Shown: positions 11,623 through 64,000 of the stretch, one piece after another
Layout: every line of letters begins with the position of its first letter
How positions within the stretch are numbered: position 1 is the stretch's first letter
Origin: Alligator mississippiensis
Taxonomy: Eukaryota; Chordata; Crocodylia; Alligatoridae
Length of the DNA: 64,000 nucleotides
Assembly: GCF_030867095.1 (NCBI RefSeq)
Contig: NC_081828.1
Location: forward strand, 51,809,434-51,873,433
Direction: 5' to 3'
Translations under genes and position numbers: made by a program
Notes under the pieces: generated by a model
What the model saw: the letters and a program-made list of their open reading frames with translations, nothing else
What the model was told of the DNA's origin: nothing
The model's database searches: none

Positions 11623-12260
11623 TCCAAGCAGCATATCGGCATGCTGAAGGAAGGAGGAGGTGATGGCCTGAGGAGGAGCCAGTGGTTCTGCGTGCTAGGA
11701 CTGGGCTTCTCCCACCTAGACATATGCCTGTGCATTGTCCTGTACTTCTTCTCCTCCATGTGCCTGCTGGGACATATACACCTTCTTCCACATATGGCTG
11801 GGGTCCAGCAAAGGCCACCCTGGCTTCCCCATGGCATGAAGCCTATGAGAGGAGAGCAGCTTAAAATTAAATCTGAATTTAATACAAAATATGACTCTGA
11901 AAGCATTCAAATAAAAAATAAATACACTAAGTCCACAAGCCTCTATAAAAATATTTTGAGATACAGTAGGTGGTGTGCTTTTTATACAGAAAAAAAACAG
12001 GGCATGGCACATTTCAGTTTTGAGGTTTAGCTATGTATATTGGCTCAAAAAATCGCATACTGCATTAAGGGTTTGAGCCTTTAGGGGTGCTGAAAAAATC
12101 TCTCCACCATTTTCTAAAATATTGATAATGAAAAAGGAATAATCTAAAAATAGTAATCTGTATAATTGTTTAAATAAATCTGGATATTTATAGCCTCATT
12201 TAGGTAGCAAGAATATGTAAAATCCTAGTGTAAATGTCCTATTCCATTGTAAATTTGCGT
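11623..12260 (+). other. QSOX1: Copy 1 former C-terminus and 3' UTR
   Basis: Decayed tail coding sequence to about 11840, then AT-rich sequence alignable to the copy 2 3' UTR. Candidate poly(A) signals AATAAA lie at 11910-11915 and 12173-12178. The second, in TAAATAAATCT, is conserved in copy 2 (60094-60099). Confidence 0.65.
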
Positions 12261-12675
12261 GTTGTAATTATATCAACCAATGAGAATGCTCCTTTCTTTA
12301 GAAAATAGCTTCAGTACCATGGGAAAGTTGATTATGATGAATAGTTTAAACGGCAGGTTTCCACCACCACTGAGATGCAGTTCAGTCCTCCCTGTGACCA
12401 GGGAGAGAGTGGTGAGGAAGGCCCATCACAGGTCACGTGTTAACAGTTCCTTCTGTAGGTCTGTGTCTGAAGAAGCAGGGAAGTTCCTGAGTTTTCAGTC
12501 GGATTGCCCTGGCAATAGGTACGACCGGAAGGTTTCTGGGTTTGGCCACTGCTGCAGCTGAGAATATGGAGGTGGCCAGATGGACAGAAATGGCATGGTC
12601 TTCAGAGATCCAGAACCCTTAGCAGCCGCCAACAGCATCCTTGAGAGATTCACTGGAGCTGCCATAGGAATAGTG

Positions 12676-12968
12676 CACTGATTCTCAACCAGGGTACCAG
12701 AGCACCCTGAGGTGCCTTGAGAGTCTTTCAAGGATGCTGTGGGGTGCCACACAATACTAGCATTGTTAGGTGTGCAAACATGATTCACAAGATAAACCCA
12801 GAGATTTCAAATAGCATTCAGACCTGTTGCAGTCTTTTGCACCAGAAGAATTGCTCTATTATTTTTCTATTGTCACAAAATAAATAAAAATTAAGAGCAG
12901 GCATTTTCTGAGGTGAGCCTCAAGTCTATCAAGGAGTGCCTCAAATCTGAAAAGTTTGCAAACCGCTG
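12676..12968. mobile_element. hAT-like MITE in the copy 1 flank
   Basis: Starts CACTGATTCTCAACCAGGG and ends GTTTGCAAACCGCTG, the usual CAGNGGTTCTCAAAC-type termini. The flanking octamers match only weakly. There is no counterpart in the aligned copy 2 flank, so it probably inserted after the duplication. Confidence 0.6.
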
Positions 12969-13177
12969 GGAGAGAGCGCGTGAGCGAGAGTATGTATGTA
13001 TTTGAGGCAGCTGATGTTGTGAACTGTGAAGAAGGAGAGAGCTCTGGCTTCTTCCTGTCCTTACTGAGCCGAGGCTAAGAGCAGTGAGGCCATGACCAGT
13101 GCTGTTTCTTTGGACCAAGAGATACTGGAGAAATCTCACAAACAGTTTGAAAGTCACTTGAGCTAAACCTATTTTAA

Positions 13178-13374
13178 CAGGTGTAGGTTGTAGCCGTGTT
13201 GGTCTCAGGACATAGGCAGACAAGGTTCTTTGGGTGAATTTGATATCTTTTATTAGACCAACTTAAATCATTAGGAAAAACATTTTTAGTAAACCCAAAA
13301 GCTTGCTAAATTTTTTTCCCCAACTACTTAAGTTGGTCTAATAAAAGATATCATATTCACCCAAAGAACCTTGT
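13178..13374. repeat. Fold-back repeat with a 13-bp target duplication
   Basis: 197-bp element flanked by perfect AAACCTATTTTAA copies at 13165-13177 and 13375-13387. Arms of about 46 bp (ACAAGGTTCTTTGGGTGAAT... and its inverse) flank a short loop. The empty site is visible in copy 2 (about 61028-61047, TTAACCCTGTTTTACATCAC). The insertion therefore followed the duplication. The 13-bp duplication is longer than expected for hAT or mariner elements. Confidence 0.85.
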
Positions 13375-14619
13375 AAACCTATTTTAAATCACATGAGATC
13401 AGCTGCTGAGAGGGTGGCCCAACCTGCTGTTGCTGAGCTGGTTTCAAGACCTCTTTGGCAAACATTAGGTCTGCACACTGCAGCTCCACCCACACTCTGC
13501 CTTTGGAAGCACTGGCTTAAAAGCAGATAGAGATGTGGACCCTTAGCCTGGCCATGGATAACTGCTGGAGCTATTAATTCTGTAGCTCCTATGCCTGTAT
13601 GGTAGTTGAGGGTGTTCTTCCCATCCTTCTCTTCAGTGTCTGGGCCTGCTGATTGCATTTTGTTGGGTGAGAGTCACAGACTATAAGCTGTGGCTGTGTC
13701 TGTAAGGCTTACCAGTGCACCACCAATTTAATAGTTTATTACTGAAAGATGTGCTGCCAGACTAGTTTTAACCTGAGAGTTGTGAGGAGGCAGGGCTTTG
13801 CCAAGAAACCCATGTTCCTAACTTGGTCCTTAAGGAGCATATCCAGGAGCAGACCCAGAGGGGTGCAGTGATGAGGTCGCACACCCGTTTCAGACCACAC
13901 TGTGGGGCAGAAGCAAAGGACTTAAGTTTCCAAATCAAGTAAGAGTCCTGTGTCCCCCCACAAGCCTTTCCATCACTTCTGTGCTTGATGGCAGGTCCCC
14001 TCCTCTCGCCTCCCATTTCCCCTTCCACTAGCCACTGCTGCCACTGCCCCAGGCTGACCACAGGTGTGTGGGAGTTCCACAGCTGTTCCTGCCCCACCCC
14101 ACTGACTATGCAGGGAACCTGGGATAACAGCAGCAGTGGTAGAGATGGGTGGGTTCCTCCTTCCAACTCAATCCAATCAGGTGTTTCTAGCAATCTTGGG
14201 AGCAGGCTTAAGGTGCTAGAGTTGCTGCCAGTGCTGCTTCTGTCCCTGGCTGACCCTGGCTCCCTGCACAACCTGGCCAGAGTAGAGTGAGTATGCAAGG
14301 GGGAAGGGAGGGAGTACCAAGAGTCTGGGGGAGATTTTTACCTGATTTGGGGACTTAGCACCCCCTAGCTGCTGCTACCAGGGGCCTCCATCTACACATC
14401 CTAGTCCAGTAGGGGAGCTGGTAGCAGGGGTGAAGCCATCTCTGGAGAACCAGCTGCTGCCCCCCACCTCTTTATAAAATCCTGGATTCACCCATGAGCA
14501 TACCTTAAACTTACCCTGCTAGACATTCATGTTCTCAAACACACTGCACAGTCTGGGACACCACTTTTCTGCACTGGTTCTGCCTCCTGAACAAGAAGCC
14601 TGTATCTGCCCTATGCTTC

Positions 14620-16310
14620 AGGCCCTCTTTTTCTCTTCTTGGAGTGCTGAGAAAGGTGAAGCAAGACAAAGCAGAGGTAAGACCTTGAACCCTGTACCCC
14701 TAGTTTTTCAAATTGAATTGCTCTCCTTCATTGTGGCTCTGAGAGCTTAGAAATAAACAAAAGCTGTTTGCTACAGGAGGGAAACTGCTCTAAACCTGAA
14801 GGCTTTCTTATTCAAAATGAAGCCACTATGATTCCGGATGGATTTGATCTGTTTACTAGGCCAATGTGAAGAATATCCATGTCTGCATGTGTACAGTACA
14901 AACCATTATCATGTCTTCTCAGCAGGGTTTCCAAAAACCCTGAGAGTTGACCCCAAAAAACTGCCTCTCTCTCCTCTCTGTAATTGGGCTTCTTCCATGA
15001 GGAAGGAGACTATTTGATCTGCTGCTTAATCTTTTTTTTCAGAAACCCCTACATTATCTGGAGTTTCCTCAGTAGCATCAGTCTCTTCTTGCTGGAACTC
15101 CTGGGCTTGAATTAGAACCGCAAGAAGTCTCCTCCCCCAGATCCTCTTCAAGGTACTATAAGGATTGTATATCTTGAAGTTAGGCTGTCACTCATCTCCC
15201 CTCTAGGATATCACTGTTACATATAGCAAAAAGTAAGTTGAATTTGAGAGAGAGCTGAAAAAGGAGTCTCATGACTGTATGGGTGCTGTTGGCATAAATT
15301 AAGAAACCTCTTTGTTAAAAGGCACTCCTGACTTTATGAACTGTACCCAAAATGCAACAGCTGTCCTCCCTTGAAGTGCTGCTTTTGGTTGCTGGAACTT
15401 GTGTGTTATCTTTTGCATGAGTACTCTCTCTGTCTCTCTATCTCATGTGCACATCCCCTTTAGATCTGTTTTGGGAGGCTGGTTGTCCATCTCCTGCCAG
15501 AAATACTCTGTAGGTGGACACAAAATTCTGCTTTGCTTAACTTGCTCTTCTACAGCTTTGTCCAAACCCAGCTTCATTCCCAGTGTCAAATGTGTGATGT
15601 TCTACTCCTCTCTGTCACCAGAATTCAGAAAGGGCTGAGCCTGCTACTCCTCAGGGAAGGGAAGTGACATGCCGTAGTGTCACTTGAGGTGGGCGAGTGG
15701 GGCAAGAGCCTCAGGTGCTGTCTTAGACAGGGTGTGAGAATGGTGGCTGCCCAGTTAGTCTGAACCTCTTCATCACCAGGTTGGGAGTCAGGACCAGAGC
15801 CAGCAGGGCTCAAAGCAGGATGTGTCAGGTGAGTCAGCCTCTAGGAGGTTGAGGGCATAGCTGTTCTCGTATTGCAGCTGCTAGTTTTATTTTTTTCTGT
15901 GACCCCTGGAAGTTCTGGCAGTAGAGGCAGCTATATAGGGGAGGCAGCCCCTATAGGGGCAGATTAACCCCTTGGCTGCTAGGTGCAATGACACATCTTC
16001 CAGCAGCCTTGGCATCTGCCCCAGGAGCAGCATGAGGCTCCCTTGGCCCAACCTCACCCCTGTTCTGCACTGGAGACATGTGGCTGGCTCTCTCAATACC
16101 TCCTCCTGCATCAGGTTTGCTCCAGGATGTAAATATGATGATGCCTCTGGCAACATGGCACAGGCAAGCCACTTGAGTTGGGTGCGCACCCAATGCTTTG
16201 GGCAGCTCTGTGCAGCTCTGTCATTACCAATGACACCAGAGCACAAAGTGGAGCTTCAGGAGACACAAGCTGCTGAAGAAATCATGGCAGCTGTCAGAAA
16301 GTACATGAAG
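14620..16310 (+). pseudogene. Decayed coding exons, possibly CEP350 (copy 1 flank)
   Basis: Three blocks read like old exons. Block a ends at 14676 with donor CAGAG|GTAAG. Block b, about 15104-15152, reads TPGLELEPQEVSSPRSSSR and ends CTTCAAG|GTACTA. Block c, about 16228-16310, reads PEHKVELQETQAAEEIMAAV. Blocks a and b have counterparts at 62604-62638 and 62860-62920, with the same joining phase across the intron (QSRG|TP...PRSS). The acceptor of b has lost its AG here. Assigning them to CEP350 rests on position upstream of the tail fragment at 22.5 kb and on gene order in other vertebrates; I cannot verify it. Could also be fortuitous open stretches. Confidence 0.4.
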
Positions 16311-17197
16311 GTTTTCTATCCTTTTTGGAGGTAGGATTATTGCTGGCAGAAGGGAAAGTTCTGCCTCTGCAGAGGAGCTCTGGGTGTGGACACACTCAGC
16401 AATCATTGCCTTGTTGCTTCCTGGTATTTAAAGCCATAACACTTTCTCCTTGAATGTTAGCTGTATGGGGAACAGAGGGCTATGACAAAAGGGATAGTGG
16501 CTCCCCACCACGCACACACTTTTTTTCTTTTTTAAAAATAATAACCTTTTGAATTGTTGTTGTTGTTTTCCACCTATAAAAGTGTGGCTCTTTGGGAGTG
16601 CTCCTGAAACTCCTGTTAACTGCCCTTTCATACATGTTGGCAAAACAGACTTTTCCCAAACTCAGCAATGAGCGAAAGAGCAAGCTGTCAATTTGGGAAA
16701 CCACAGGCTAAACAGTCAAAAATCTTAGAAGTAGATTTGTACCCAGGGTTTCTGTTACAGCCTGCTCTTGGGCCTTCCTGTTGCTTTAGAATGATTAAAT
16801 CACAACAAATTCTTGTACCATAGGTCTTACCCTATCAGCAGGCAGAACCTCTGCACAGACTAGTATAATACTTAATATATATTACTACCTAGTTTTGTCA
16901 GCATAGCAGTTCTGGGTAGGGATGTGAAAAGATCACAATCCCCCAGCCAATGACACCTATGCTATAAAAACCTTGGTGGAAATGCATCCATGTCAACAGA
17001 AGAGGGCGTTTTTGAAGCTAGCTGCAGCATTTTTGCAAGTAAGAACTATGCCAACAGGAAACCTCTGAATACTGGCAGACACTGCATCTCTGTAAGGGGC
17101 TCTGCAGACATAGTTTAACCAACAGCAGAGACTGTAGTGTAGAAGGCAAGGTAGATTTTCTATAGACTATCCAAAGTAGATTGTGTGAGTGCTCTTT
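16311..17197. other. Spacer without recognised features
   Basis: Unique-looking sequence. The part to about 16.9 kb aligns with 63.4-63.7 kb in the copy 2 flank. No gene, RNA or repeat recognised. Confidence 0.5.
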
Positions 17198-17211
17198 CTT
17201 TCTCTCTCTCT

Positions 17212-17280
<69 letters not shown>
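17198..17280. repeat. (CT)n-(CA)32 microsatellite
   Basis: CT-rich run (17198-17211) followed by an uninterrupted 64-base CA run (17217-17280). Probably highly variable in length. Confidence 0.98.
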
Positions 17281-17283
<3 letters not shown>

Positions 17284-18342
17284 CAAATTTCTCATCAAGA
17301 ACGACAGGTGGGCAGGGACACAGGCCTGTATCTGGTCCCCCTGCCTTTGGTTCCAGGCCCATTCCCCCTCCAATCCAAGCCCGTTCCCCCCTTCCCCCAC
17401 TGCTGGTTCGGGTCTGGGCCTATTCCCCCACGTCTCCCCCCACTTCAGCTCTGGGCCTGTTTCCTCCCTCCCCCAAGCCACACCTCTGAAGGAGCTGCCG
17501 GGCTCCAGTTGTCCCATGACCCAGCCCAGTTGGGACCCCAGTCATTGTGAATGGGGACCCAGCTGGGCCGGGTTGTGGAGCAATCAGAGTCTCACGGCTT
17601 GTCCAGGGGTACGGTCTGTGGCCCCTCGGTCTGTACATGGGGAAAGTGGGGGCTGCAGCTGTGGGCTGTGCTCAGCCTCTGCTCCCTGCCTCACTGCCAC
17701 TGCATTGGCAGTAGCACAGCACCATATGCCTCGCTGCCCGACCCGGCCTACCCAGTGGCAGTACTCACATGGCACTGCACCATACTGCTGTCAAAGCAGC
17801 AGCAGCAAGGCAGGGAGCAGAGGCTGAGTGCAGCCTGCAGCCCCCATCCCACCCTCCCTCTCTGGGCAAAGCCGGTTGGGGGTCAGGGAGCAGGGCAGGT
17901 GGTTGGGGGCGCAGTTGGCCAGGGAACACTGTCACTGAGCTGTGCCACACAGCTGATCCAGTCCTCCCCCTCCCCACTGCCTCCCACTCCCTGCCAGCTG
18001 TGGTGTGGGGGTGCGCTGTACTGCGCCTCCTGACAACAGGCAGCAGGGAATAGAAGGCTGCAGAGTGGGGGGAGGGAAGCAGGCATAGCATGTTGCACCA
18101 CATGGCCATGCCCCATGGCAGGCGGTGCCCTGCGGCAGGCAGTGCACCACGCTGCACTATGCTCTGCCCCCAACCACCCGGTCTGCTCCCTGACTCCTGA
18201 ACACCTTTGCCCCCACCTCCTCCTGTTTGCCTGTCTGTCCGTAATGATCTGGGCCAGCCAATCACCACCCACGCTGTGGGCAAAGCATGTGTAGTTGGCC
18301 TGGAGCATTATGGACAGACAGACACACAAACAAGTCTCTTAT
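17281..18342. repeat. GC-rich spacer with an inverted repeat
   Basis: C-rich sequence holding a stem: CAGCCTCTGCTCCCTGCC near 17675 and GGCAGGGAGCAGAGGCTG near 17810. There is no counterpart in the copy 2 flank, so this is inserted DNA of unknown family. Its open frames follow base composition and show no protein motif. Confidence 0.4.
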
Positions 18343-19276
18343 TAGGGCTGTGCGAAGCTGGAGATTTGGCTCGATTCGGTGGCTGAATCTCCAAATCCAG
18401 ATCTAATCAGGAGACTAATTAAAAGGTCCAAATCAATTTGAAGCTCTCTGAATCAATTTGGAAAAGATTCGGAGAGCTTCAGTGATTCAGGCAGTCCCCG
18501 CTTGCTGTGGCAGGGAGCTGGACCCAGACTCCGAGCTGGTAAATAAGGGGCAGGGGAGGAGAGGCTGAAGGAGCGGGGAGAGGACCATGGGGGGGACCCC
18601 TGCCAGGCCCCATCCCCTGCCCTCTCCCCCAGCCCCCCTGAGTGCCCCATGACCCCTGCCCATGCCCCTAGTTCCCCGCCCCATGGCTGCCCTGCCTGCC
18701 CCAGCTCCTGGTTGTTTAAAAAAAAGCTCCACTCACCAGGTGCTGCCAGGCAGAAGGGTGATCCCTGCTGCCCCCATTGCCCCATGCTGCATGGGGGGGC
18801 TCTGCTACAAGCCCCCTGACCCCTGCCCACTCCCCCAGCCCCCCATAGCTGCCCTGCCCCCCCCAGCTCTGGCCCTTTAAGGAAAGAAAAAAAACAAAAA
18901 ACCCCACACTCACCGGCTCATGCAGCAGCCTCGGGGCTTCTGGGGGCTTGGGGTAGAGGCCACCATGCACCATGGGGCAGTGGGGGTCAGCGGGGATTCC
19001 CCCCCACTGGGCAGCAGCTGGTAAGTGGGAGCTTTTTTTTCTCCAAGTGCTGGGAGCTGGGGCAGGCGCAGCAGCTGTTGCAGGGCTGGGAGAGCAGGCA
19101 GGGGATAGGGCACATGTGATTTGGAGATTCGGCTGATTCAGCAGCAGCCAAATCTCCAAATCAGATTCGGCCAAATGAACTCGGGACAGTGATTCAAATC
19201 ACTGAATCGAATCACTGTCCCCCAAATCAGCTGAATCCAAATCCGAAGCGAATACTAGATGCTTTGCACAGGCCTA
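18343..19276. mobile_element. 934-bp terminal-inverted-repeat element
   Basis: Begins TAGGGCTGTGCGAAGC and ends GCTTTGCACAGGCCTA, inverse matches with two mismatches. The sub-terminal parts are also inverted (GAGATTTGGCTCGATTCGG and its counterpart near 19120-19160). Flanking octamers TCTCTTAT and GCTTTTAT match at 6 of 8. The GC-rich interior holds at least two imperfect direct repeats (about 18590-18750 and 18770-18915). It looks like a non-autonomous DNA transposon. No transposase seen. Confidence 0.7.
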
Positions 19277-19985
19277 GCTTTTATTATATTGAATATATAT
19301 ATATAGCACAAGCTTTTGTGAGTTGAAGTTAATTTTATCAGATGCTATACATATGTAGATCAGGGGTTGGCAGCCTACAGCCTAATCTACAGAGCCATTG
19401 GAGCTGGTCCTTGGAGCTGCAAGGAGGGGAAGGGAGGGGAGGGGTGAAGATGGGAGTGGGTGGCTTCATCTGCATCATGGACCAGTAGCGGGGAAGTTTG
19501 CCTGCATAGTGCCCAGGCAATGGAGAAAAGGGGCAGCAAGCAGATCCTAGTGCCAGCCCGTCTTGACTCAAACTGGGTCATCCTGGCCCATCACCAAGAA
19601 AACTTTTCTAACCACTGACATAGACAAGCTCTATAATTAAACAAGGAGAAAGAGAGGTCTGGGATTACAGCTTTTCCCTTTTAATCTCCTCTGTTTTAAA
19701 TACATCTAATACTTCAGACAAGGAATATCAAATGCACCCTGGGCCCCCAACTAGATCCAGATCATGGGGGCTCCTCCCAAGCTGGATCCATGACTGGGGA
19801 CAGTAGTAGGAGCCCACAGTCAAGGAGCAGCCTGGGTCAGGGATCAGACAGCAGTGCAGGTCCAGAAGTGGGTGGCTGAAGAAGTCTGGGGGTGGGTGGT
19901 GGTGTCATCCAGGATGAAGCAGCAGCCTGGGTCAGGCAGTAGGTGGCAGTGGGGCAAGTGAGAGCTGCATCTGAACAGCATACAC

Positions 19986-20540
19986 TTGACTTGCCTCTAT
20001 CGGGCACTGGTCAGACCTCAGTTGGAGTACTGCGTGCAATTCTGGGCGCTGCACTTCAAGAAGGATGCGGATAACCTGGAGAGGGTCCAGAGAAGGGCAA
20101 CTCGTATGGTCAAGGGCCTGCAGACCAAGCCCTACGAGGAGAGACTAGAGAAACTGGACCTTTTCAGCCTCCGCAAGAGAAGGTTGAGAGGCGACCTTGT
20201 GGCTGCCTTTAAGTTCATCACGGGGGCACAGAAGGGAATTGGTGAGTATTTATTCACCAAGGCGCCCCCGCGGGTTACAAGAAACAATGGCCACAAGCTA
20301 GCAGAGAGCAGATTTAGATTGGACATTAGGAAGAACTTCTTCACAGTTCGAGTGGCCAAGGTCTGGAACGGGCTCCCAAGGGAGGTGGTGCTCTCCCCTA
20401 CCCTGGGGGTCTTCAAGAGGAGGTTAGATGAGTATCTAGCTGGGGTCATCTAGACCCAGCACTCTTTCCTGCTTATGCAGGGGGTCGGACTCGATGATCT
20501 ACTGAGGTCCCTTCCAACCCTAACATCTATGAATCTATGA
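19986..20540 (+). mobile_element. CR1 LINE 3' fragment
   Basis: End of the reverse-transcriptase ORF (YRALVRPQLEYCVQFWA, ERVQRRATRMVKGLQ, NNGHKLAESRFRLDIRKNFF) followed by the short 3' UTR and terminal ATCTATGAATCTATGA. It is 5'-truncated. Very similar to the antisense copy at 61256-62289, so probably the same young subfamily. Confidence 0.95.
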
Positions 20541-21643
20541 CTTCCTACCAATGGACATGTCCATCGGGGTGCAGGGACCCTGAGTTCTGTGGCAGGCCAT
20601 GCCCCACTGGCCATGTCCTCCAACTTCCAGTAGCCTGTTGGACTACCTGCAGCCTTGCTGAAATGATTCTATGAGCCAAATCCAGCTCACAGGCCATATG
20701 TTTAAAACTCTTGCTTCAGACAATTGATAACATGCAACTAAAACGTTTTCACGTGTAGTGTCTTTCAGCCTTGCTTCGGCAAAGGAATCGAATATCAAGG
20801 TTTGCATTTCCATCTGTGTTACTTATTAATTGTCCATGTGTAGTCTGATACACCTTTTGTACAAACTGGAGTTCCCTAGCTTTTCTTTTTCTAATTAAGA
20901 TAAACATTTACTCCTGAGTCATATAGGATATGTGGCCTGAGTTGGCTTAGCACTGAAACTGAGTAAATAGTGTGAGAGAGAATATTTATTTTATTATGTT
21001 CCCATCCTTTCTATATCCCTTCTGTGAAAGCTCAAGTCCTCAGGCTTTGTTAGCATGTATATTTAAGGATGCAAAACTTTTTTTTTTTTATCATGAATAC
21101 CAAAATAGTCAATAAAAGCATATTTTAAACACTGTTATTTGTAAAACGCAGGTTAGACTGTCTTCAGACTGTACATCATTTGCTGATACAATTCTATCAA
21201 AATCATTGTATGTTTTCTGTCATCTGGTATATGAGCACCCAGTTTTATATGGCCAAAAAAATTGGCCCATCACAGGCACCTCATGTATGAGAGAAGAAAT
21301 GCAAATTAACAACATATTGCTGCACAGTACATTGTTTGCTAGCAGTTCTACTTCTGTTTTCAGGAGAATTAGGAATGAAATGTGAATTCCTTTGTTTCTT
21401 ATGATTTGTCATGCTTCTTAACAACTTTCCATACTCTAATCTTTCTTTTTTTTTCTTTCATTAAGTTGGCCCTTACTTGTTTCAGTTTTTTGTACAGCAC
21501 GCATCAAATCTGTTTACTTTTTACAAATAAGGAACACATTAAGGTTTTTTTTCAATTTGAATTCATGGTCTTTGGTTAGTAATGGTGTACAATATCATGT
21601 CAATATTGTGTTTTAAGCACAAATCCAAGGAAATCCTTTAAAA
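20541..21643. other. AT-rich spacer without recognised features
   Basis: Low-GC sequence with T runs near 21070 and 21450. No gene or clear repeat ends seen. Confidence 0.5.
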
Positions 21644-21998
21644 TAGTGGTTTTCAACCGTTTTTGTACCAGGACCCATTTGTAAACGTCAATTGCCAACC
21701 CCAACCCAGTGCCCCTCGCTCCCAACTAGCTATCCCTCCACCCCCGCCCCAACCCTCCAGTGTGTGGGGCAAGGAGTGGGTATGTGGGGTGGGGAGGGCA
21801 TGGGGGGCCCCCAAGCAACTCCTTGCAGGCTGGAACTCTGCCAGCCTGCAAGAGAAATGCCAGTTTCCCATGTTGTTCCCCTTTAAAGGAGAATCTATTT
21901 TTAAAGTTTGCTGATCCATTTTTAAAGTTTGTTTGTGACCCTTTAATATATTCTTGCGACCCACATTTGGGTCATGACCCACAAGCTGAGAAACACTG
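21644..21998. mobile_element. hAT-like MITE with 8-bp target duplication
   Basis: Starts TAGTGGTTTTCAACC and ends GCTGAGAAACACTG, flanked by CTTTAAAA (21636-21643) and CTTTAAAG (21999-22006), 7 of 8 matching. The interior is C-rich then AT-rich, with no transposase. Confidence 0.85.
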
Positions 21999-22487
21999 CT
22001 TTAAAGTGAATAGTAAATCCATGGGGGGAAATTAAATATTTTAGCCTAAGTAGCCTATTTAAAAGTAATCTGTTATGCAATTGCTTATTTAATATTCTAA
22101 GAATATATCTGAAACCACTTATTCCTGGGTATGCAGCTCAAACACTGAGTGCTATTTACAAAGCACAGTTTCAATGGAGGCCACTACTAGTGACATCTGC
22201 TATGTTCAGATGTAAGCCCTCAGCACGTTTGCAAGTGGGAAATGGGACTGAACACACAGGCTTATGGACAGATTAATGAATCATTGCATAGTGAAGACAG
22301 GGGAGTCGCTGTAATGCTTTTCAAATCCTTTTGCATTTAATAAAGTGAGTAAAGAATATTGGCATACAACAGACATTGTGGTGGGCTGTGTGATATTCAC
22401 CCCAACGCTTACAGAAAAGCATTTCCATTATTAGCAATTAATTCTCTATTATGTGTCTCATGCTTGTTTCTGATTTTTCCTGGAAGT

Positions 22488-22975
22488 TCTGAAAGTATAT
22501 AACGTATGCTAGGAAGCAGTGGAGTAGTACTATTTGTATTTTTTCTATACATGCCAAAGCACAGAAACTCCATGAGGAAAAAGCTCAGTGGGTGAACTAT
22601 GATGAGGATGAGCTGTGTGTGAAAATGTAGTTGACAGATGAGATCTTTGAGGCCTTAATTGGAGACACCACTGATGTTCTTAACCAGATGAATGGAGAAC
22701 AGTGTAGACCACTGCTTGTGTGTCATATCCGAAGCAGTGGAGTAGTACTACTTGTATTTTTTCTATACATGCCAAGGCACAGAAACTCCATGAGGAAAAA
22801 GCTCGGTGGGTGAACTATGATGAGGATGAGCTGTGTGTGAAAATGTAGTTGACAGATGAGATCTTTGAGGCCTTAACTGGAGACACCATTGATGTTCTTA
22901 ACCAGATGAATGGAAAACAGTGTAGACCACTGCTTGTGTGTCATATCCAAAAGTAAACCACACGCTGTAACAGCT
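22488..22975 (+). pseudogene. CEP350: C-terminal fragment of a centrosomal-protein gene, probably CEP350, internally duplicated
   Basis: One frame reads AKAQKLHEEKAQWVNYDEDE, then LCVKM, a TAG, and LTDEIFEALIGDTTDVLNQM followed by RPLLV. I recognise this as similar to the CEP350 C-terminus, from memory and because CEP350 lies directly upstream of QSOX1 on the same strand in other vertebrates. The block occurs twice in tandem (22513-22730 and 22731-22948, 218-bp period). Both units carry the same TAG (22628-22630 and 22846-22848), so the nonsense change came before the internal duplication. A preceding piece (EVLKVYNVC, from about 22488) matches an exon beginning at the right edge of the window. 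Read as the dead 3' end of the upstream neighbour, carried along with QSOX1. Confidence 0.6.
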
Positions 22976-24291
22976 TGAGCTGTGGGCGTTTCTGCCTCCT
23001 GACATGTACTACATGTCCACCATAAGAGTCTATACTGCTACTAAACTTTCATAGGTGTTTCTTAAAGGTAGCTTGGATATGATAAAGGAGCATAGTCTTA
23101 CATAATCTGCTTTTAGATGCCTTATACTGAACTGATTTGAAAGAAGCATGAACCCTAACTTGAAGCTAGTGCATAGAGTGTTTTTGCCATTCTTGTGCCA
23201 AGACAGTACACAGCATAGCTTCCAGCAGCTCCCCAGGTTTCAGTCTGGGGCTGGGAACTTCATATTGCCCTCTCACTGTGAGATTGCTGAGCTAGGACTG
23301 GCTGGGGCCCCTTGGCCTGGAATTGTCAAGAATTGAAACTGAAGTGATCTTCAGACATATGTGAGATTCTCTCTCACAATAGGATGCTACCTGAGCTACT
23401 GATTTTTGGGTCACCGTACTGTACCTTTCCGATTAGTTTTTGTTTCACACAAGGTTGAGTAGTTTATTGAAAGATCCATCTTCTTCCCTTTTTTTTCCTG
23501 AAGAAGTGGCCTTTGCTTTTGCAGTACTTAAATAGTGTGTACCTGAAGAAGATATTCAGTAGCACAGTGACAGAACATTTACATAGCTACCCTGTGAAGA
23601 ATGGAGTGCAGTTCTCACTTTCCTATCCCTTTGCTATCTTAAGACTCTTGGAGGAATCAGATATTTCATATTGTTCTATTTCTTGAAAACTGACAAGAAG
23701 ATGACAGCCCTGATCCAGGACTTCCCCATTTATTCCACAAGAAGCCATAACGACAGTCTGCCCTGCTGTTTTATTATACTGATTTTTTTCCCCTCAGAAT
23801 GCCTGCTTGTGTCATCTTAAAGACTTGGCAACTCTAATTTAATTACCCCAGCATCATGAAGGACAGAAGTGTTAAAAGCAAGTGTATTACCTATAATTCT
23901 ATACACAGTTCCACTAATATGCCATCGTCTACTTCAATTAGCCCAAATTCCTCCATTCATGTCTAGCTGCAACAAAAATCACATGCAGTGGTCTGGAGGG
24001 AGGTAGTCGAGGGACAGAGCCCACACCTCACTGTTCTGATACTTTTCATAGTGAAGCATCTGCTTGCACACTTAAAAAATCCCCAGTTATTTCCAGTGTT
24101 CCTGTTATTCTAGGAACTAGATTCACTGGACTCATTACAACCATCTCTTCACTAGTCTAGAGGTGACTTCTTTATCCACAGATGGGGGGAGACCATGTCC
24201 TGATTCAATGGCATTCATTTTTAATTGTGGAATCTTGCTGGAATAGTGTCTTGACAAAAGGGTTGGTAAGACTGATGTGCTACAAGCTTCT
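22976..24291 (+). other. Possible former 3' UTR and spacer
   Basis: Sequence after the CEP350-like tail. It may be the old 3' UTR of that gene followed by the normal CEP350-QSOX1 spacer. No further coding signal or clear repeats. Confidence 0.35.
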
Positions 24292-25041: not shown

Positions 25042-25046
25042 CTTCT

Positions 25047-28371: not shown

Positions 28372-28897
28372 GTTTAATGTTTTCTTGTGAGTGGTGAAAA
28401 CCGAGTCCAAGCCAAATTTGCAAGTTTCCTTAGATGAAGCAGCTTTAATAGGATTTTAGGGCAGTACATTATCATCTTTTTATCCTATCAGAACCTTTGG
28501 CTTTATACAAAGTATCCAGGCTTTTCCTACTACCTTAAAAAAATCTAGAAACAACTTGACTGCCCCTTATCTCAGGGACTTTCCATTTCTATTGAGTGTG
28601 TATAATGCTGTCCTGCTTACCTCTGTGCTCCAGGATATACATATTAAAGGAGCTGTCACAATAGAACAACTCCCAGTTCATGCAACTGTAGGTTTAACTA
28701 AATTTCTTACAGTACCCAAGCATCATCAGAGTCCAGGTCAGTTTGACATAACTACTTTTTCTAAACCACTCCTAGCACTTAATGCAGTTTTCCCTGCATA
28801 GGAATAACAAAGAAGTGTTCATGCAATATGTTTAAGAACACAATTGGATCCATACAACCCTTGCTCTTTCATTATCTGAAACACAAACTCACTGGGG

Positions 28898-32900: not shown

Positions 32901-33588
32901 AGGAGACGCTCCTGCCACAGGCTCGAGTTTCCTCAGTGTTCACATTGCCCCTTCCCTGCTGTGCGGGCTGTACAGCCCCTCTCACACTTCCCAGTGCACA
33001 ATACTGAGAGGGAGGAGGGGGGAATAGGAGACAAGAAGCAGAGGACAAATATTTGCCAGCCGGCAGAGGGAACTTGGGAGAGCGGGTCTGTCCGGGAACT
33101 AATCTCCCCTCGTCGTGAGGGAAGTGCAGGGACGCGCCCTCGCAGCCCTGGAGGTCATGAATGTACCCATGGCCCCTGGCAGGGAGTCGGGGAGCGGCCG
33201 GGCGGGGAGCGGTGCTGGACAGCTCCCAGGCAGCAGGACCGAGCAGGACCCCGCAGAGCTGAGCCCGGAGGCCAGCCGTGCCGCGGGACGGGGCTGGGAG
33301 CGGCGGCGAGAGCGCAGGCGGGCCCGGGGCCTCCCAGCGGGGAGGAAGCCGGGGAGTGGGGCGGCCTGGGGGCTCCCCAGACCTCGGGTCCAGGCCGGCG
33401 GAGCCCTCGCTTCCCCCTCGGCCCGCCCGGCACCAGGGGCACAGCCGAGGCAGGGGCCGGGGCCGGGCCCGGGCCGGCTCCGGGCGGGGCGGGGCGGGGC
33501 GGGGCGGGCGCTGCTCCCGCGACTCCTCCCCGCCGGCCGGGCCCGGAGCGAGCGGCACTCGGCGGCGGGCGAGCGGGCGGCACGGAGC

Positions 33589-33826
33589 ATGGCGCGGGTC
33601 CTGCTGCTGGCGCTGGTGCTGGCGGTCGCCCTGCCCGGGGCGCGGCCCCAGCCCGAGGCCGGCCTGTACTCGGCGGCGGACCCGGTGGTGCTGCTGCGGG
33701 CCGAGACGCTGGGGCGCAGCGTGCTCAACTCCAGCAGCGCCTGGGCCGTGGAGTTCTACGCCTCCTGGTGCGGGCACTGCAAGCGCTTCGCCCCCACGTG
33801 GCTGGCGCTGGCCGCAGACATCCTGG
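33589..33826 (+). CDS. QSOX1: QSOX1 copy 2 exon 1 (coding part)
   Basis: Signal peptide, LYSAADPVVLLRAETL, a likely N-glycosylation site (N47-S-S), and the catalytic motif FYASWCGHCKRFAPTW. Donor CTGG|GTGAGT, phase 1. Confidence 0.96.
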
Positions 33827-36800
33827 GTGAGTGCCCGGCCCCGGCCCCGGCCCCGGCCCCGGCCCCCTCGGGCCCTTCCCGCTGCGGCTCTCCGGGCCCG
33901 GCAGGAGGGCTGGGCTGGCCCCGGCGGAGGAGTTTGAAGCTGGAGTTGTGCCGGCAGAGCCCGGTAGCGCAGGCTCGGGCGGGCGTTGGGGCATCTCGTA
34001 GAGCCCAGGCTCAGATGGGCCCCAGCAAGTCTCTCTGAGGAAGGCGTTGGCCTCCCACCAAGGGCCCCCCGTGCTGGATGGTCACGGCTGCAGCTTTGGC
34101 CTTTGTAGGTCAAGGTTGGGCCTGTCCCCTGGGCCGGGGCAGCTTCCAGAAAGGGCCTTTTGGGTGAACGCCTCCGCAAGGCTTCATGTGAGGTCAGAGT
34201 CCGCTTCAGCCCAAGGGATCCTTAAGTGTTTAACAGCCTAATTGATGCCCTAACTGTAGGTACCTAGAGCTAAATAAACTACCCCCCCCCCAAGTGGAAA
34301 GTGGTAGTTGTTTGGAAATGCGTGGTGCCACGCTGTGTAGCTTAGGACAGACGGTGAAGAATAATGATCCCAGCTGAAAAAACACAGGGGGGATTTTAGC
34401 TATTCTGCATCTCTGGGGATCCATTGTCATCACCCTGCTCTGGAGTGTGCTGTGCCTCAGCCCTTCCCTTACTCATCCTTCTGGAGAGTGGTGGCCAGTA
34501 ATGGGGTGGCCCATTATCACACCCAGCCTGGTCATTGAATAACGTTTTGCTTTCTGTCCCAATCTGGGGATCCTAAGCTGCCTCAGAAGTAGTAATGGAT
34601 TTTGTTTCCCACTCTCGGTCTGACAGAGGGAGCATTAGGGAGAACCTACCCGAAGGACATTGGCACAAGTGGGGATGGTCCTCTGGTGTGTGGATCCCTG
34701 TACCACACAGTGAGGTTACTAGCTTCTGGAAGAAGAGGAGGGCCAGGCAGAGAGTTAATGCTGTCCAGTCCAGGCTTGCTGCCAAGGAGGGAGCTCAGCC
34801 AGCCCATAAGTTGCAGGGCTCGGGCTCGGGCTCCAGCTCTGGGTGCAATGTTATAAATCAGGTGCGTGACTGCTACTTGTATATTTACAAGGGGCTGAGG
34901 CCTTACCAACAGTAGTGGTTGTGGTCAACATTCTTCTTCTCATGTATGACTTCAGAAAGTTGACTCCTCCAACCATTTAAGAGTAGATCCATCAATATTA
35001 CTGCAATCTTTCAGACTTGTTCGCTCCCTCTGGTGGACCATATAGAGGGCAGTCAGTTAGTTAATATATGCTGGGCTGTCTGAACTCCTTTGCCACAGGG
35101 ACATGATGGTGAGTTTGTAAGGCTCATTTTATGTTTCATTTTGTTGAAGGCTCCATAGCCTGATCACAGTCGATTCAGGTTTAGCCATGCCTTACATGGG
35201 AGTTTATAATGAGGAGGGTGTGAGGATGGTAGTTGTATGTAGTTGTGTAGTGGGGTGTGGACATATTGCAGTGGTCGACATATTGGGCACAGACATCCAC
35301 CCCTGCAGGCCAGAGAGAACCAATCTGCATATGGTGTACCCGTGCACTGAGCTGGGCGGCAGTTGCTGACAGCAGCTCCCTGGTTGTTCCCCCTGGGAAA
35401 ATGCTTAACAATATTCATGATTGACTGGAACTGGTGACCCATGTGGGTAGCAGGGGGTGGAACTGTATGCTGACAGATGCTGTACTACTTGTTTTAACTT
35501 GTGTTGGCTCTAATGCCTGGGCTTGACATTGTGGCTGTGAAGTGTTTGTGCTCCCATGTCATGGACAGATGGTAGCTTGATGCTTAACAAACAAGGACAC
35601 GGAGAGCCTCTGCTGGAGAGTCTCCACTTAAGAATCCATGGTTTCCTGCCCCGTGAAGAAAATACACCCTGCTTTTGGTGTGAAGGGGGATCTGTCCCTT
35701 TAGTGACACCATTTCTTACATGAATGCTGCCCCTGTGATTTCCCTGCATAGAGGTGGGTGCTGTGAGGGCCTGGCACAGCTCTCCTGAACTCTAGCTCAG
35801 GGCTTGGTGCAGTTGCCTGCAAGGGCCTGTTAGGTCCTACTGCAACACAGTTCAAATAAGCAGGCAGCAGTGAGCTCTTGGTCTAGCTTTTGGCATACAT
35901 GTGGGTGCACTGGTGTTGCCTGAACAGGAGGGTGCAAGCAAGTCCAGACCCCTTGCAATGTCTGTATGACAGCACAGACAGGACTTGTTTTTCCCCTCCT
36001 CTTTTGCATTCTGGCCCAAAAGTCTGTGTATAATGCAGGGCATTAGAGGAAATCTGGTCTCTGCTTCTCTGATGGCTCTAGAACAGGGGCAGATAAAGTC
36101 CAGCCTGCTGGCCGAAGCTGGCCTGCAGTGGACTCCATTTCCCAGCAGCCCTTGCCCACGAGGCTGTGGCTGGTTTCCATGGAGACCAGCCCCAGCAGCA
36201 CTGGCAGAGTGCATGGCAGTGTGGGGAGCTGCTCCTGGGCTGAACTGGGATCTTGCAGCAGTGAAAGCATGGTCCAGAGCCGGGGCAAAGCCGTGATCCA
36301 CACCCTGCATGCTGCTTGGAGCACATAGGCTGCAGATCGCAGGTCTGCTCTGGCTCTGGACCACGCTGTCACCGCTGCAAGATCCCAGCTCAGCCCCCAA
36401 GCAGCTCCCCGCCCTGCCAGCACTGCTGGGGCCAATCTCCATGGGAACCACAGCCCCACCTATCATAGCTGGCTGCTGCTGGGGTCTCCATGGAAACTGG
36501 CTCCAGCCTCATTGGCAGGGGCTTCTGGGAAATGGAGTCTGGCTGCCCTCTGGATCCATCATTTTGCCCACTTCTGCTCTCGAATCCCATAAATTAAAGT
36601 GTTGGAAAAGCTCCATGAATCTGACTGGGCAAAGGCTGATCTTTAAGGAGAAACCTTGTGGGGCAATGAGGAGTGAAGCCTGCCCAATCTGCCTTGAATT
36701 CTTGTGCCAAGAGATGATGTTTTGTTGAGAGTTTATGCCACCTGGCTTTTTCACAGTGGGTCAGTGGGATTAATCCTCACTTTCTTGCAGAAATTAGAGA

Positions 36801-59706: not shown

Positions 59707-60240
59707 GGCTTGCAGTGGGTGACCAGCTATTTCCAGTCAGGGTTGATTAAAAATTATCCTTTGTTTTTTTCCTTAAAATCCAAGTTTTTTAACATTTTAA
59801 ATTAATTTTTATTTAACTTACAGATACATTATTTTTTAAAATCTTGTTTAAAATTAAATCTGAATTTAGTACAAAACATGTTAAGATCTAAATCTGAATG
59901 CCTTGAGAGCCAATGATAAATAAAAAGTAAATAGGCTGAATCCATGAGTTTCTATAAAAATCTTTGAGATACAGTGGGCTGTGTGCTTGTACTGCATTAA
60001 GAGTTTGACTTTTTGTGGAACTCAAGAACAATCTCTCTTTTGCCATTTTCTAATATACTAACAATATAAAATGTTAAGCTATATAATTGCTTTAATAAAT
60101 CTACATTATTTATAGCATACCCACTTTGGTGGTAAGAATATATCCCAAGTCCTAGTGTAAAGGTTCTATTTAGTTGTAAATCTGCATGTTGTAATTATTA
60201 TATCAACCAATGAGAAGGCATTTTTCTTTAGAAAGCAGCT
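59707..60240 (+). terminator. QSOX1: QSOX1 copy 2 3' UTR and candidate poly(A) signals
   Basis: AT-rich UTR with AATAAA at 59919-59924 and 60094-60099. The second is conserved with copy 1 (12173-12178), making it a good candidate, though the used site is unknown. Confidence 0.55.
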
Positions 60241-60737
60241 GAAATACACATGGAAAAGTTGATTAAAATCAATGATTTTAAATTGAGGCCTTCCACTTGG
60301 TGATTTCAAATAATTAAATGGATTATGTAAATTACTGCGATTTAATTAATCCACATTGTGAGCAGTGGGAGAGTGGCAGGGATAGGCCTGCTACCGGCCA
60401 AGTGTCAATGGTTCCTTATACAGGTCCATGGCTGCAAGGCACCTGAATCTTCAGCTGGATTGCCATGGAAATGGGCATGGCCGGCTGGTTTCTTGGTATT
60501 GCTGTTGCTGCTGCTGCTGAGAATGTGGAGGTGCCTACTTACACAGATATGACATGTTCTTCAGGGATCTAAAAGTGTTGCCTGGTACTAAGGGCCTCTC
60601 AGAGATTTACTGCAGCTGCCAAGGAGATACTATATGTGTGCGCTGAGGGGAAGGGGGTTTGAAGTTGTGAAATGTGAGCAGCTTTTGCTCTAGCTGCTAC
60701 TGTTCCTTTCTGAGCTTGAGGCTGTAAACAGTTAGGT

Positions 60738-60948
60738 CAGAGGTTCCCAAACTTTTTCCTATTGAGTACCCCCTTCCAGATTTACCAGCTGCCCATGTAC
60801 CCCTACCAGTATATGGTTTATATTTTAACCCCTTAAATAACAATTATTATTATGAAAAACCCATCATTACACAATTTCTCCTGCATATCCCTCAGAGAGG
60901 TCTTGCATACCTCCAGGGGTTATGCATACCACAGTTTGGGAACCCCTG
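60738..60948. mobile_element. hAT-like MITE in the copy 2 flank
   Basis: Starts CAGAGGTTCCCAAACTTTTT and ends CAGTTTGGGAACCCCTG. Flanks AGTTAGGT and AATTAGGC match 6 of 8. The empty site is visible in copy 1 near 13083-13095 (GCAGTGAGGCCATGACC), so it inserted after the duplication. Confidence 0.8.
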
Positions 60949-61255
60949 AATTAGGCCATGATCAGGGTTATCCTTTTGGGCCAAAAGACACTAGATATCT
61001 CATAAACAACTTGAAAAGCCACTTGAGCTTAACCCTGTTTTACATCACATTAAAGCCACTGCTGAGAGGTGATCCAAGTGGCTGTTGCTGAACTAGTTTC
61101 AAGATGTCTTTTGCAACCGCCAGGTCTGCACACTGCAGTGCCACCCAGATTCTGCATTTGGAGGAACTGGCTTAAAAACAGATAAAGAATATGGACCCTC
61201 AGTCTGGCCATGGATGACACAGTTGATGCTATTAATCTTGTAGCTCCTACACCTA

Positions 61256-62289
61256 GATTCATAGATGTTAGGGTTGGAAGGGACCTCAATAGATCATCGA
61301 GTCCGACCCCCTGCATAGGCAGGAAAGTGTGCTGGGTTTAGATGACCCCAGCTAGATACTCGTCTAACCTCCTCTTGAAGACCCCCAGGGTAGGGGAGAG
61401 CACTACCTCCCTTGGAAGCCCATTCCAGACCTTGGTCACTCTAACTGTGAAGTTCTTCCTAATGTCTAGTCTAAATCTGCTCTCTGCTAGCTTATGGCCA
61501 TTATTTCTTGTAACCCCCAGGGGCGCCTTGTTGAGTAAAGCCTCACCAATTCCCTTCTGTGCCCCCACGATGAACTTATAGGGAGCCACAAGGTCACCTC
61601 TCAACCTTCTCTTGCGGAGGCTGAAGAGGTCCAGGTGCCCTAGTCTCTCCTCATAGGGCTTGGCCTGCAAGCCCTTAACCATACGAGTGGCCCTTCTCTG
61701 GACCCTCTCCAGGTTCTCTACATCCCTCTTGAAGTGCGGCGCCCAAAACTGCACGCAGTATTCCAACTGCGGTCTGACCAGCGCCCGATAGAGGGGAAGT
61801 ATCACCTCCTTGGTTCTGTTCCTCATGCATCTGCTGATGCACAATAAAGTGCCATTAGCTTTTCTGATGACTTCGTCACACTGACGACTCATGTTCATCT
61901 TGGAGTCCACTAGGACTCCAAGATCCCTTTCCGCTTCCGTGCCACCAAGCAGGTCATTTCCTAGGCAGTAGGTATGCTGGACATTTTTCCTCCCTAGGTG
62001 CAGCACTTTGCATTTCTCCTTGTTGAATTGCATTCTGTTGTTTTGTGCCCATATGTCCAACCTGTCCAGGTCTGCTTGTAGTTGTTCCCTGCCCTCCGGC
62101 TTGTCCACTTCTCCCCACAGTTTTGTGTCATCCACAAACTTGGACAGAGTACACTTCACTCCCTCGTCCAAGTCACTGATGAAGACATTGAAGAGTATCG
62201 GTTCAAGGACCGAGCCCTGCGGGACCCCACTGCCCACACCCTTCCTGTATAAGGTATTCCATTTTTTGCTCCCTCCTTTCAATATCTAG
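61256..62289 (-). mobile_element. Young CR1 LINE, 5'-truncated
   Basis: Antisense CR1 with an open 314-codon stretch covering the end of the reverse transcriptase (GVPQGSVLEPILFNVFISDL; FVDDTKLWG; YRALVRPQLEYCVQFWAPHF) and the C-terminal region, then the 3' UTR. Absent at the equivalent place in copy 1 (near 13580), so it inserted after the duplication. The 5' part of the element is missing, so it cannot move on its own. Confidence 0.96.
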
Positions 62290-62603
62290 GACTGCAGTAA
62301 TGCTGATGGGATTTTGTAGGCAGAAATTCACAGGCTATAAGTTGTTGCTGTTTCTATTGTTTACCAATGCACTGCCTATTTAAAATATTATTGCAAGATG
62401 TGCTGTTGTTGTGCTGCCACTTCTAACATGAGACTTGGGAAGAGATAGGGCTTTGCCAAGAAACCACGCTCCCCATCTATCCTAAAGCACATATACTAGG
62501 CAGTGATGCTCTCAAATATGCTGTACGGCCCCATTCAGTCAGTCTCCTGAACCAGAAGGCATATAGGCTGCATCTGCAGACTGCTTCAGGCCCTCTTTTC
62601 CTA

Positions 62604-64000
62604 AAGCATTGAGGAACATGGAGTTGGACAAAGCAGAGGTAAGGTCATGACTGTGTGTGTGGTGTGAAACATTGTAATGTCCTTTTGGTAGGATTTCCAA
62701 AAAGGTTCAACATCAGTGTCCCAAGAATCTGTATTTCTGTCCTCTCTGTTACTGGGCTTTCAGGAGTAAGGAGCCTACTTTTCCTGATCTTTATTCATTT
62801 TTATTGGAGACTTTTGCAACACCTGGTGTTTTCTCAGTGACATCTCTTTCTAATTTCAGGGACTCCTGTGCTAAAATTGGAATCCCAGAAGGAAGTCTTC
62901 TCCCCCAGATCCTCTCCAAGCTATCCTCTTTATTTAAAGTGCTTTTTTTTTTTTGCTAAAAGATTTTTCTGCACAGCTCCATTCAGCAGCTCTGCCACCA
63001 GAGTTTGAGGTGCACTTTGAGAAGGCACCATGTAAGAGCCAGGCAGTCATCAAGAGCCCTACTGCTTTCAGCAAAAAGGAAGACTGTTGCAGAGCTGTGG
63101 GTGTGGCTGTAATCAAAGTTATTCCAGCATAACTTTATAGTACAAGTTAGGCCTCTGGAAGCTGCTGCTTCTATGGGAAATGAAAGAACTATGCCTATAT
63201 TCAGGGTTTGATCAATGTTTGTTCCCTTTTTTCTATTAAAGCCATAAACTTTGTTCCTTCCTTTTGGAGTCATGTGAAACAGAAGACAGTGACAAAGGGA
63301 AAATGCAGATTTTTTCCTTTCTTTAAAAAAAATCATTTGGCAACGTGTTTTCCAACTACACTAGTGTAGATATGTGGAGAGCAAAGAATTCTAAGTAAAG
63401 TATACACTCCTATTAATTGCCTTCCATACCTGTTTGATACAAGTCCTTTTTTCCAAAACTCTCTAATTAGTAGAAATGGAGCTGTTAAATTGTGAAACCA
63501 CAGGCCTGATGGGTGTGTACACATAGCTAGAAACCTTGGAAGTGGTTCTGTCCCCCAGGGTTTCCTAACGCAGCTTTGTTTTTTTGGGTCTTCGTATTAC
63601 TTCAGGATTGTTAATTCACATAGTATTCTTGTATTGTAGCTTTGACCCTCTCAGCAGACACAGTCCCTGCACAGACTAGTCTAGGGTTTAGTCTTTTCTA
63701 TGCAACTTTGCTGGCATAGTTGTATCAGGCAGGGCGGTGATCGCTGTAGATATGGCAGTAGAAAAACTCCTTCCATCAGTACATACTACATCTCCACTAG
63801 AGGGCTCTGCTGGCATAGTTATGCCAGCCAAGCTGTAGCACCAAGAGTAGATAAACCCTAAACCTAAACCTGCCTAATGAGGGAGGCAGAGTACTGGGAT
63901 TAAAGCAATTGATTCTCTATTATACACAATTTAAACTTGTGGATATTTCTTTCCAGAAGTTCTGAAAGTGTACTATGTATGCCAAAAAGCAATGAAGCAG
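62604..64000 (+). pseudogene. Decayed or partial coding exons, possibly CEP350 (copy 2 flank)
   Basis: Counterpart of the blocks at 14.6-22.5 kb. Block a ends at 62638 with donor CAGAG|GTAAGG. Block b (62860 to about 62920) follows acceptor TAATTTCAG and reads TPVLKLESQKEVFSPRSSPS. A possible block c near 62977-63060 reads PPEFEVHFEKAPCKSQAV. An exon follows acceptor TTTCTTTCCAG at 63957 and reads EVLKVYYVCQKAMKQ up to the window edge, open here although its copy 1 counterpart has stops. Gene identity is inferred from position only; individual blocks are uncertain. Confidence 0.4.
63061..63950. other. Spacer without recognised features
   Basis: Intron-like sequence between the last two putative relic exons. 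Parts align with 16.4-16.9 kb and 22.4 kb in the copy 1 flank. No gene or repeat recognised. Confidence 0.4.

Follow-up and report, generated by a model that had tools for sequence, protein, structure and literature searches.

A three-copy tandem QSOX1 array between CEP350 and LHX4 in Alligator mississippiensis, with decayed last exons of CEP350 between the copies

A 64,000-nucleotide stretch of the Alligator mississippiensis genome (contig NC_081828.1, here C5; C5:51809434-51873433; hereafter the window) lies within a tandem array of three QSOX1 genes between CEP350 and LHX4. The array probably arose by one tandem duplication, with unequal exchange and gene conversion acting afterwards. On a single strand, the order is CEP350 - QSOX1a - T1 - QSOX1b - T2 - QSOX1c - LHX4, where T1 and T2 denote decayed duplicates of the CEP350 last exon and T0 is their counterpart at the end of CEP350 itself. 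Successive tails lie 45.4 and 41.5 kb apart. The array was read from one alligator genome assembly, from sequence only, and the genome searched comprised 2,346,462,532 bases in 195 contigs. An earlier note on the window had proposed a repeated unit of the CEP350 3' end plus QSOX1, with a possible third unit past 64 kb. The unit is repeated, but its CEP350 part consists of the last exon and part of the last intron, and the later tails are decayed. Past the window, T2 and a full-length QSOX1c were found; upstream of position 1 lie exons 1-4 of QSOX1a and CEP350 itself, whose last exon is intact.

The array is anchored by its neighbors. A CAP-Gly domain in a 721-aa open frame at C5:51770009 (L011:9-2171) has PDB entry 2coz, centrosome-associated protein 350, as its best match (E 5.9e-46; runner-up E 2.6e-21). 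On the other side, LIM exons at C5:51970196 and 52004422 match LHX4 in the PDB at 123/123 aligned residues. The available part of a cattle gene list gives the order TOR1AIP1, CEP350, QSOX1, LHX4, ACBD6 (PMC12075139). Because the alligator genes are flanked by CEP350 and LHX4 as in cattle, the array occupies the site of the single cattle QSOX1.

The spliced QSOX1b protein matched the genome 38 times: 29 matches fall in the array and group into three consecutive copies, five are on contig C12, and four weak ones are elsewhere. The genes are located as follows, in window positions unless C5 is given.

280-370, 1019-1161, 2732-2896, 3303-3432, 7543-7662, 7851-7992, 10466-10642 and 11135-11622 (stop), plus strand: exons 5-12 of QSOX1a
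33589-59706, plus strand: QSOX1b, complete, 12 exons, 721 aa, with a C-terminal hydrophobic (anchor-like) segment
C5:51886577-51926201: QSOX1c, full length, 12 exons, 763 aa, beginning 13 kb past T2

Exons 1-4 of QSOX1a lie 7080 to 1916 bases upstream of window position 1. With splice sites picked by homology and frame, each gene has 12 exons, GT-AG introns, and one terminal stop, and QSOX1a encodes 639 aa. The passages available of PMC3616962 define QSOX by a thioredoxin (Trx) domain together with an Erv domain, and QSOX1a, QSOX1b, and QSOX1c all carry both. Thioredoxin, QSOX_Trx1, FAD_SOX, and Evr1_Alr exceed the Pfam cut-offs in each copy, and the best PDB match of QSOX1b is QSOX1 chain 3t58. 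Redox-active CxxC motifs are present in the Trx and Erv domains of all three; the motifs are CSDC/CRDC/CPLC in QSOX1a, CGHC/CETC/CPSC in QSOX1b, and CGHC/CQTC/CPSC in QSOX1c. Thus, the usual Trx motif CGHC is kept in QSOX1b and QSOX1c and not in QSOX1a, where it is CSDC. The anchor-like segment is likewise found in QSOX1b and QSOX1c and not in QSOX1a (hydropathy peaks over the last 200 residues of 1.51, 2.13, and 0.19, respectively). Each exon 1 is embedded in CpG-rich DNA (GC 0.70-0.74, observed/expected 0.68-0.71), so each copy brings its own promoter candidate. Because each also has an open 12-exon model, each copy is predicted probably to make a disulfide-forming enzyme.

The copies are separated by tails that mark the CEP350 side of each unit.

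C5:51786484-51786762: T0, 81% to the tail query; open exon, the intact end of the real CEP350
22513-22951, plus strand: T1, a decayed copy of the CEP350 last exon in the form of two head-to-tail repeats, 22513-22733 and 22731-22951
63886-64000, plus strand: onset of the third tail unit (T2), whose exon-like part, like QSOX1c, lies past the window end
C5:51873337-51873547: T2, 68% to the tail query, more decayed than T1

The frame of T0 is open to its end, ...VQELHEEEAQWVNYDEDELCVKMQLADGIFEALIRDTIDVLNQINEKQQRLLLV, and then meets a stop. T0 is read as the last exon of CEP350 because it lies 15 kb downstream of the CAP-Gly frame on the same strand, has an open frame, and ends in what we take to be the C-terminus of CEP350. 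T1 consists of a 218-bp unit present twice, the two copies being 96.8% identical, and both read KLHEEKA[Q/R]WVNYDEDELCVKM followed by an in-frame TAG. In T2, the likeness to T0 switches between two reading frames, indicating frameshifts. Private changes number 22 in T1 and 55 in T2. T1 and T2 are therefore dead copies of the CEP350 last exon. The CEP350-like tail reported at 22.5-22.95 kb is there, as one exon doubled, but it does not directly precede QSOX1b; 10.6 kb separate T1 from exon 1 of that gene.

The DNA downstream of QSOX1a and QSOX1b is arranged alike. The pieces, with units numbered 0, 1, and 2 along the array, are as follows.

12392-13649, plus strand: QSOX1-downstream DNA of unit 0, four pieces, 51821825-51823082 matching 51926222-51927534 (native DNA downstream of QSOX1c)
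13649-14899, no strand: unit 0 interval containing the junction of QSOX1-downstream DNA and the CEP350 last intron, placed to the interval only
14899-22512, plus strand: CEP350 last-intron pieces at 14899-15147, 16339-16502, 21306-21623, and 21990-22512, with other sequence between
60357-61186, plus strand: QSOX1-downstream DNA of unit 1, two pieces, 51869790-51870619 matching 51926223-51926854 (native DNA downstream of QSOX1c)
62667-62904, plus strand: CEP350 last-intron DNA of unit 1, 78.5% identical to C5:51785061-51785302

After QSOX1a and QSOX1b, matches to the DNA downstream of QSOX1c run to 51823082 and 51870619. Matches to the CEP350 last intron then begin at 51824332 and 51872100 (from about 51785059 onward), and the tail comes next. 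Both inter-unit flanks thus switch from QSOX1-downstream DNA to CEP350 last intron within matching intervals. In or across this junction interval, units 0 and 1 share two segments (51823025-51823285 with 51871675-51871936, and 51823950-51824157 with 51871927-51872116) for which neither reference flank showed a clear match. The 3' flanks of the two QSOX1 copies, which had been said to share non-QSOX1 sequence, are indeed collinear, from 50494 opposite 75 through 63740 opposite 16927 to 63886-64000 opposite 22414-22527 (66.4% identity across 116 columns). The proposed match of the last 100 or so window bases to 22.43-22.53 kb also held. Positions 63904-64000 align to 22433-22527 with a local score of 48, against a maximum of 37 for 200 dinucleotide shuffles searched against window 1-63600; on the reverse strand, the unshuffled window end scored 26. 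The units share one orientation and their homologous flanks lead into the tail, as expected of a tandem duplication that carried the CEP350 3' end along.

Within these flanks, about 5.5 kb of unit 0 (16927-22414) stands opposite 146 bases in unit 1. Unit 1 has probably lost flank DNA because unit 0 matches the CEP350 last intron at 21306-21623 and from 21990 onward. The same stretch includes a GC-rich part with an (AC)32 run at 17217-17280. A weak QSOX-like reading at 16257-16416 was taken as chance given its low bit score, with nothing further in the sequence.

The ancestry of the units is mosaic. Across 5443 non-coding sites aligned in all three units, unit 2 has 807 private changes, unit 0 has 660, and unit 1 has 379, and these are uneven over 15 windows (chi-square 130, p 4e-15); the windows counted each had at least 60 such sites, and every coding base of QSOX1b was left out. 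A short private branch is expected for the middle unit if it has shared sequence with both neighbors. With mouse QSOX1 as the outgroup, shared-derived residues over 481 columns number 11 for QSOX1a and QSOX1b, 12 for QSOX1b and QSOX1c, and 5 for QSOX1a and QSOX1c; with a human sequence as the outgroup, the counts are 13, 18, and 4. The sites shared by QSOX1a and QSOX1b fall at residues 142-405 of QSOX1b, and 10 of the 12 shared by QSOX1b and QSOX1c fall outside that stretch. Exon lengths group QSOX1a with QSOX1b: exon 7 has 165 nt in both and 135 in QSOX1c, and exon 4 has 88 and 91 nt in QSOX1a and QSOX1b versus 103 in QSOX1c. The clearest tract is at exon 1. Synonymous divergence (dS) between QSOX1b and QSOX1c is 0.005 there (79 codons) versus 0.551 in exons 2-12, and exon 1 of QSOX1a differs from those of QSOX1b and QSOX1c by 0.18 and 0.19.

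33493-33867, plus strand: gene-conversion-like tract relative to QSOX1c, covering promoter-proximal DNA and exon 1 of QSOX1b

This likeness is limited to about 375 bp, with 85-100% identity in 60-column windows inside and 37-65% outside, and overall 351 of 387 columns are identical. A gene-conversion footprint is the best reading of the tract, to which constraint on a CpG-rich exon may have contributed. Mosaic tracts are thus present between the units, clear at exon 1 and moderate elsewhere.

QSOX1a is the fastest-evolving copy, with 49 private residues against 8 and 9 in the others. Over exons 5-12, the ratio of nonsynonymous to synonymous change (dN/dS) between QSOX1a and QSOX1b by NG86 is 0.47 for the core and 0.88 for the tail; the maximum-likelihood option of the codon script gave higher values, 0.66 and 1.13. 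It ends at an in-frame TAG in exon 12, beyond which lies decayed anchor sequence. The donor of its exon 4 (C5:51807430-51807517) is ACA/GTAATT where QSOX1b and QSOX1c have CAG/GTAACT; the site is shifted, keeps the frame, and looks weak. In its predicted sequence, QSOX1a has diverged into an anchorless form with a changed thioredoxin motif, CSDC. One possible but rather doubtful reading is that QSOX1a is a pseudogene or is decaying and that QSOX1b and QSOX1c alone work. The premature stop that takes off the membrane anchor, the replacement of CGHC by CSDC, the fast protein evolution, and the weak exon 4 donor all fit such decay. Against it, QSOX1a runs for 639 codons without any other stop or frameshift, keeps its FAD/Erv cysteines, and has all four QSOX domains over the Pfam cut-offs. 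Its exon lengths, and those of QSOX1c, differ from those of QSOX1b by multiples of 3 only, whereas multiples of 3 make up 12% of 527 non-coding gaps. When neutral decay was simulated from QSOX1b, a mean of 6.2 to 9.4 stops arose in 654 codons, and 1, 1, and 0 of 2000 simulations were stop-free at 0.10, 0.13, and 0.16 changes/site. The loss of the anchor also resembles a known short splice form, as described in the passages available of PMC3616962.

Tentatively, QSOX1a may instead be a working secreted QSOX with a retuned Trx motif, crocodilian-specific and kept for at least tens of millions of years beside two anchored sisters. As part of the same working-enzyme reading, a secretory role, for example in egg, oviduct, or skin secretions, is conceivable, if rather speculative. 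In this reading, gene conversion would have kept the promoter and first exon of those sisters, QSOX1b and QSOX1c, alike. An intron of QSOX1a contains a 116-bp unit three times (6526-6876), reported at 100% matches, and QSOX1b has one related stretch, near 54415; the triplet is either a very recent expansion or an assembly effect. Intron 1 of QSOX1b holds a G-rich minisatellite with a 115-116-bp period (39328-39636).

The following history would account for the array. One tandem duplication would have joined DNA at least 1.3 kb downstream of QSOX1 to the last intron of CEP350, about 1.5 kb or more ahead of the last exon, leaving the order CEP350 - QSOX1 - junction - tail - QSOX1. The units could then pair, and an unequal exchange between them would have added a third unit and copied the junction. 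Later exchange and gene conversion would have blended the middle copy with both neighbors, most clearly at exon 1 of QSOX1b and QSOX1c. A single duplication followed by exchange and conversion is favored because both flanks switch to the CEP350 intron in matching intervals. Repeated unequal exchange, which had been offered as the mechanism, fits the second step, where the like junctions and mosaic middle copy point to it; in the first step, the two breakpoints, placed to within about 1.3 kb, showed no shared repeat, and CR1 copies lie nearby. Since CR1 copies lie near both sides, the first joining may have been repeat-mediated. One such long interspersed nuclear element (LINE) fragment, at 61338-62285 on the minus strand, is CR1-like (presumably CR1) and contains a 315-aa reverse-transcriptase frame (RVT_1) that is open. 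At 19994-20537, among the CEP350 last-intron pieces of unit 0, lies an inverted CR1-like copy with 91% identity to the end of that fragment.

Several points weigh against this history and the accompanying view of the genes. The junction is placed to an interval and not to a base, and a single common junction is the simplest reading; the shared junction segments might instead derive from DNA that the reference flanks have since lost. Of ten local-alignment comparisons aimed at the junction base, most fell within the range of 60 shuffles, and the strongest (51824067-51824287 against 51783257-51783527; score 245, shuffle maximum 209) is a weak hint. Shared-derived residues yield no single tree, their clustering is modestly significant (runs test p 0.015), and uneven local rates could add to the short branch of the middle unit. 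Part of the likeness of QSOX1b and QSOX1c at exon 1 may be constraint because exon 1 dS between QSOX1a and either is also lowish. Frame-keeping is partly built into the models because splice sites were picked by homology and frame, and QSOX1a evolves fast and has its weak donor.

Two independent CEP350-QSOX1 duplications, with separate breakpoints and no copied junction, would also produce two tails, which may differ in age given their 22 and 55 private changes, and breakpoints resolved just to intervals of about 1.3 kb leave room for such events. This alternative is improbable: the junction-interval segments common to units 0 and 1, not clearly present in either reference flank, are explained most simply if the junction was copied.

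It is very improbable that the tail is a dispersed repeat or a fragment of an unrelated gene. The 55-residue tail alone found nothing convincing in the PDB (one match, E 1.1, choline kinase) or Pfam, and its identity as the CEP350 last exon is partly presumed. Against this, a DNA search of the whole genome that skipped very common words placed the tail in just three places, all inside the QSOX1 array. T0 is an open exon with a stop on the same strand as the CEP350 CAP-Gly frame, which favors the assignment of the tail to CEP350, and CEP350 precedes QSOX1 in the available part of the cattle list (PMC12075139).

Duplicated arrays are a frequent site of assembly error, yet it is most improbable that the three copies are a single QSOX1 multiplied by unmerged haplotypes or misjoined contigs, since units 0 and 1 diverge by 23% over 16409 aligned non-coding sites, far above haplotype difference, the sole run of Ns in the 263 kb examined (65 bases, 51751793-51751857) is far from the junctions, and T0, T1, and T2 are in different states of decay.

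The non-coding mismatch between units 0 and 1, 0.230, corresponds to K of about 0.275. At 7.9e-10 per site per year, which we take to be the crocodilian rate, this suggests a divergence of about 174 million years, a figure to be read with the caution that the sites that can still be aligned tend to be slow ones and that conversion lowers K. The common ancestor of modern crocodiles is placed near 80 million years ago in the part available of PMC11294572. Because the estimate predates this ancestor, living crocodilians are predicted to carry the array.

Elsewhere in the genome, C12:63462998-63508405 holds a QSOX gene with a LIM pair no more than 12 kb beyond it, mirroring QSOX1-LHX4 on C5. Its sequence distance, the adjoining LIM pair, and a synteny that we presume lead us to call this gene QSOX2; the LIM pair is probably LHX3. 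The two loci form an old paralogous block. On another contig, at C1:482655756 and 482682878, two near-identical copies of an adult-type beta-globin exon 2 differ at one of 73 residues. Compared with PDB 8wix_B, from American alligator hemoglobin (PMC11294572), one copy agrees at 72 of 73 residues and the other, as judged from the two outputs side by side, at 73 of 73, which fits an alligator or a very close relative. Scans for Rfam families and tRNA genes found nothing.

Tandem triplications, and tandem duplications later reworked by unequal exchange and conversion, are events of a familiar type. No tandem QSOX1 array is described in the titles and abstract openings listed by the literature searches on QSOX1 duplication, CEP350, turtles, crocodilians, reptiles, and egg white and oviduct. 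Judged by those listings, the array appears new, as do the CEP350 remnants that mark it and the QSOX1 variant with CSDC and no anchor. Three old QSOX1 copies whose redox motifs differ offer a natural test of the roles of the CxxC motifs and the anchor in this enzyme, and what is left of the CEP350 tails serves as a molecular fossil able to order and date duplications in any crocodilian genome.

Among known systems, tandem duplications that carry a truncated neighbor fragment in each unit are alike in their head-to-tail units of one orientation and their like junctions. Members of this class also show the carried and decayed 3' end of the neighbor, the mosaic middle copy, and the local conversion seen in the alligator. 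The alligator array departs from this class, unequal crossing over between segmental duplicates, in that no shared breakpoint repeat is seen for its first step, where CR1 is nearby and breakpoints are placed to an interval. Craniates have two QSOX paralogues, QSOX1 and QSOX2, from a deep duplication, according to the passages available of PMC3616962. The alligator copies share with this pair the Trx domain with CxxC, the second Trx-like domain, the FAD_SOX region, and the Erv/Alr domain with CxxC, but QSOX1 is tripled in tandem and QSOX2 lies on another contig. The same passages describe the CGHC Trx motif as nearly universal in Metazoa, except in certain nematodes and insects (PMC3616962), and QSOX1a deviates from it with CSDC. 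In the short splice form of QSOX1, the last exon is interrupted (PMC3616962, same passages); QSOX1a likewise ends before the anchor, but here an in-frame TAG within exon 12 fixes the truncation, and what follows is decayed anchor sequence. Direct-developing frogs have a duplicated QSOX1 orthogroup under relaxed purifying selection, as given in the passages available of PMC11342244. That duplication is likewise lineage-specific within vertebrates, but it comes from transcriptomes of another lineage, and those passages contain no tandem array, CEP350 tails, or changed motifs (PMC11342244) such as the alligator array combines.

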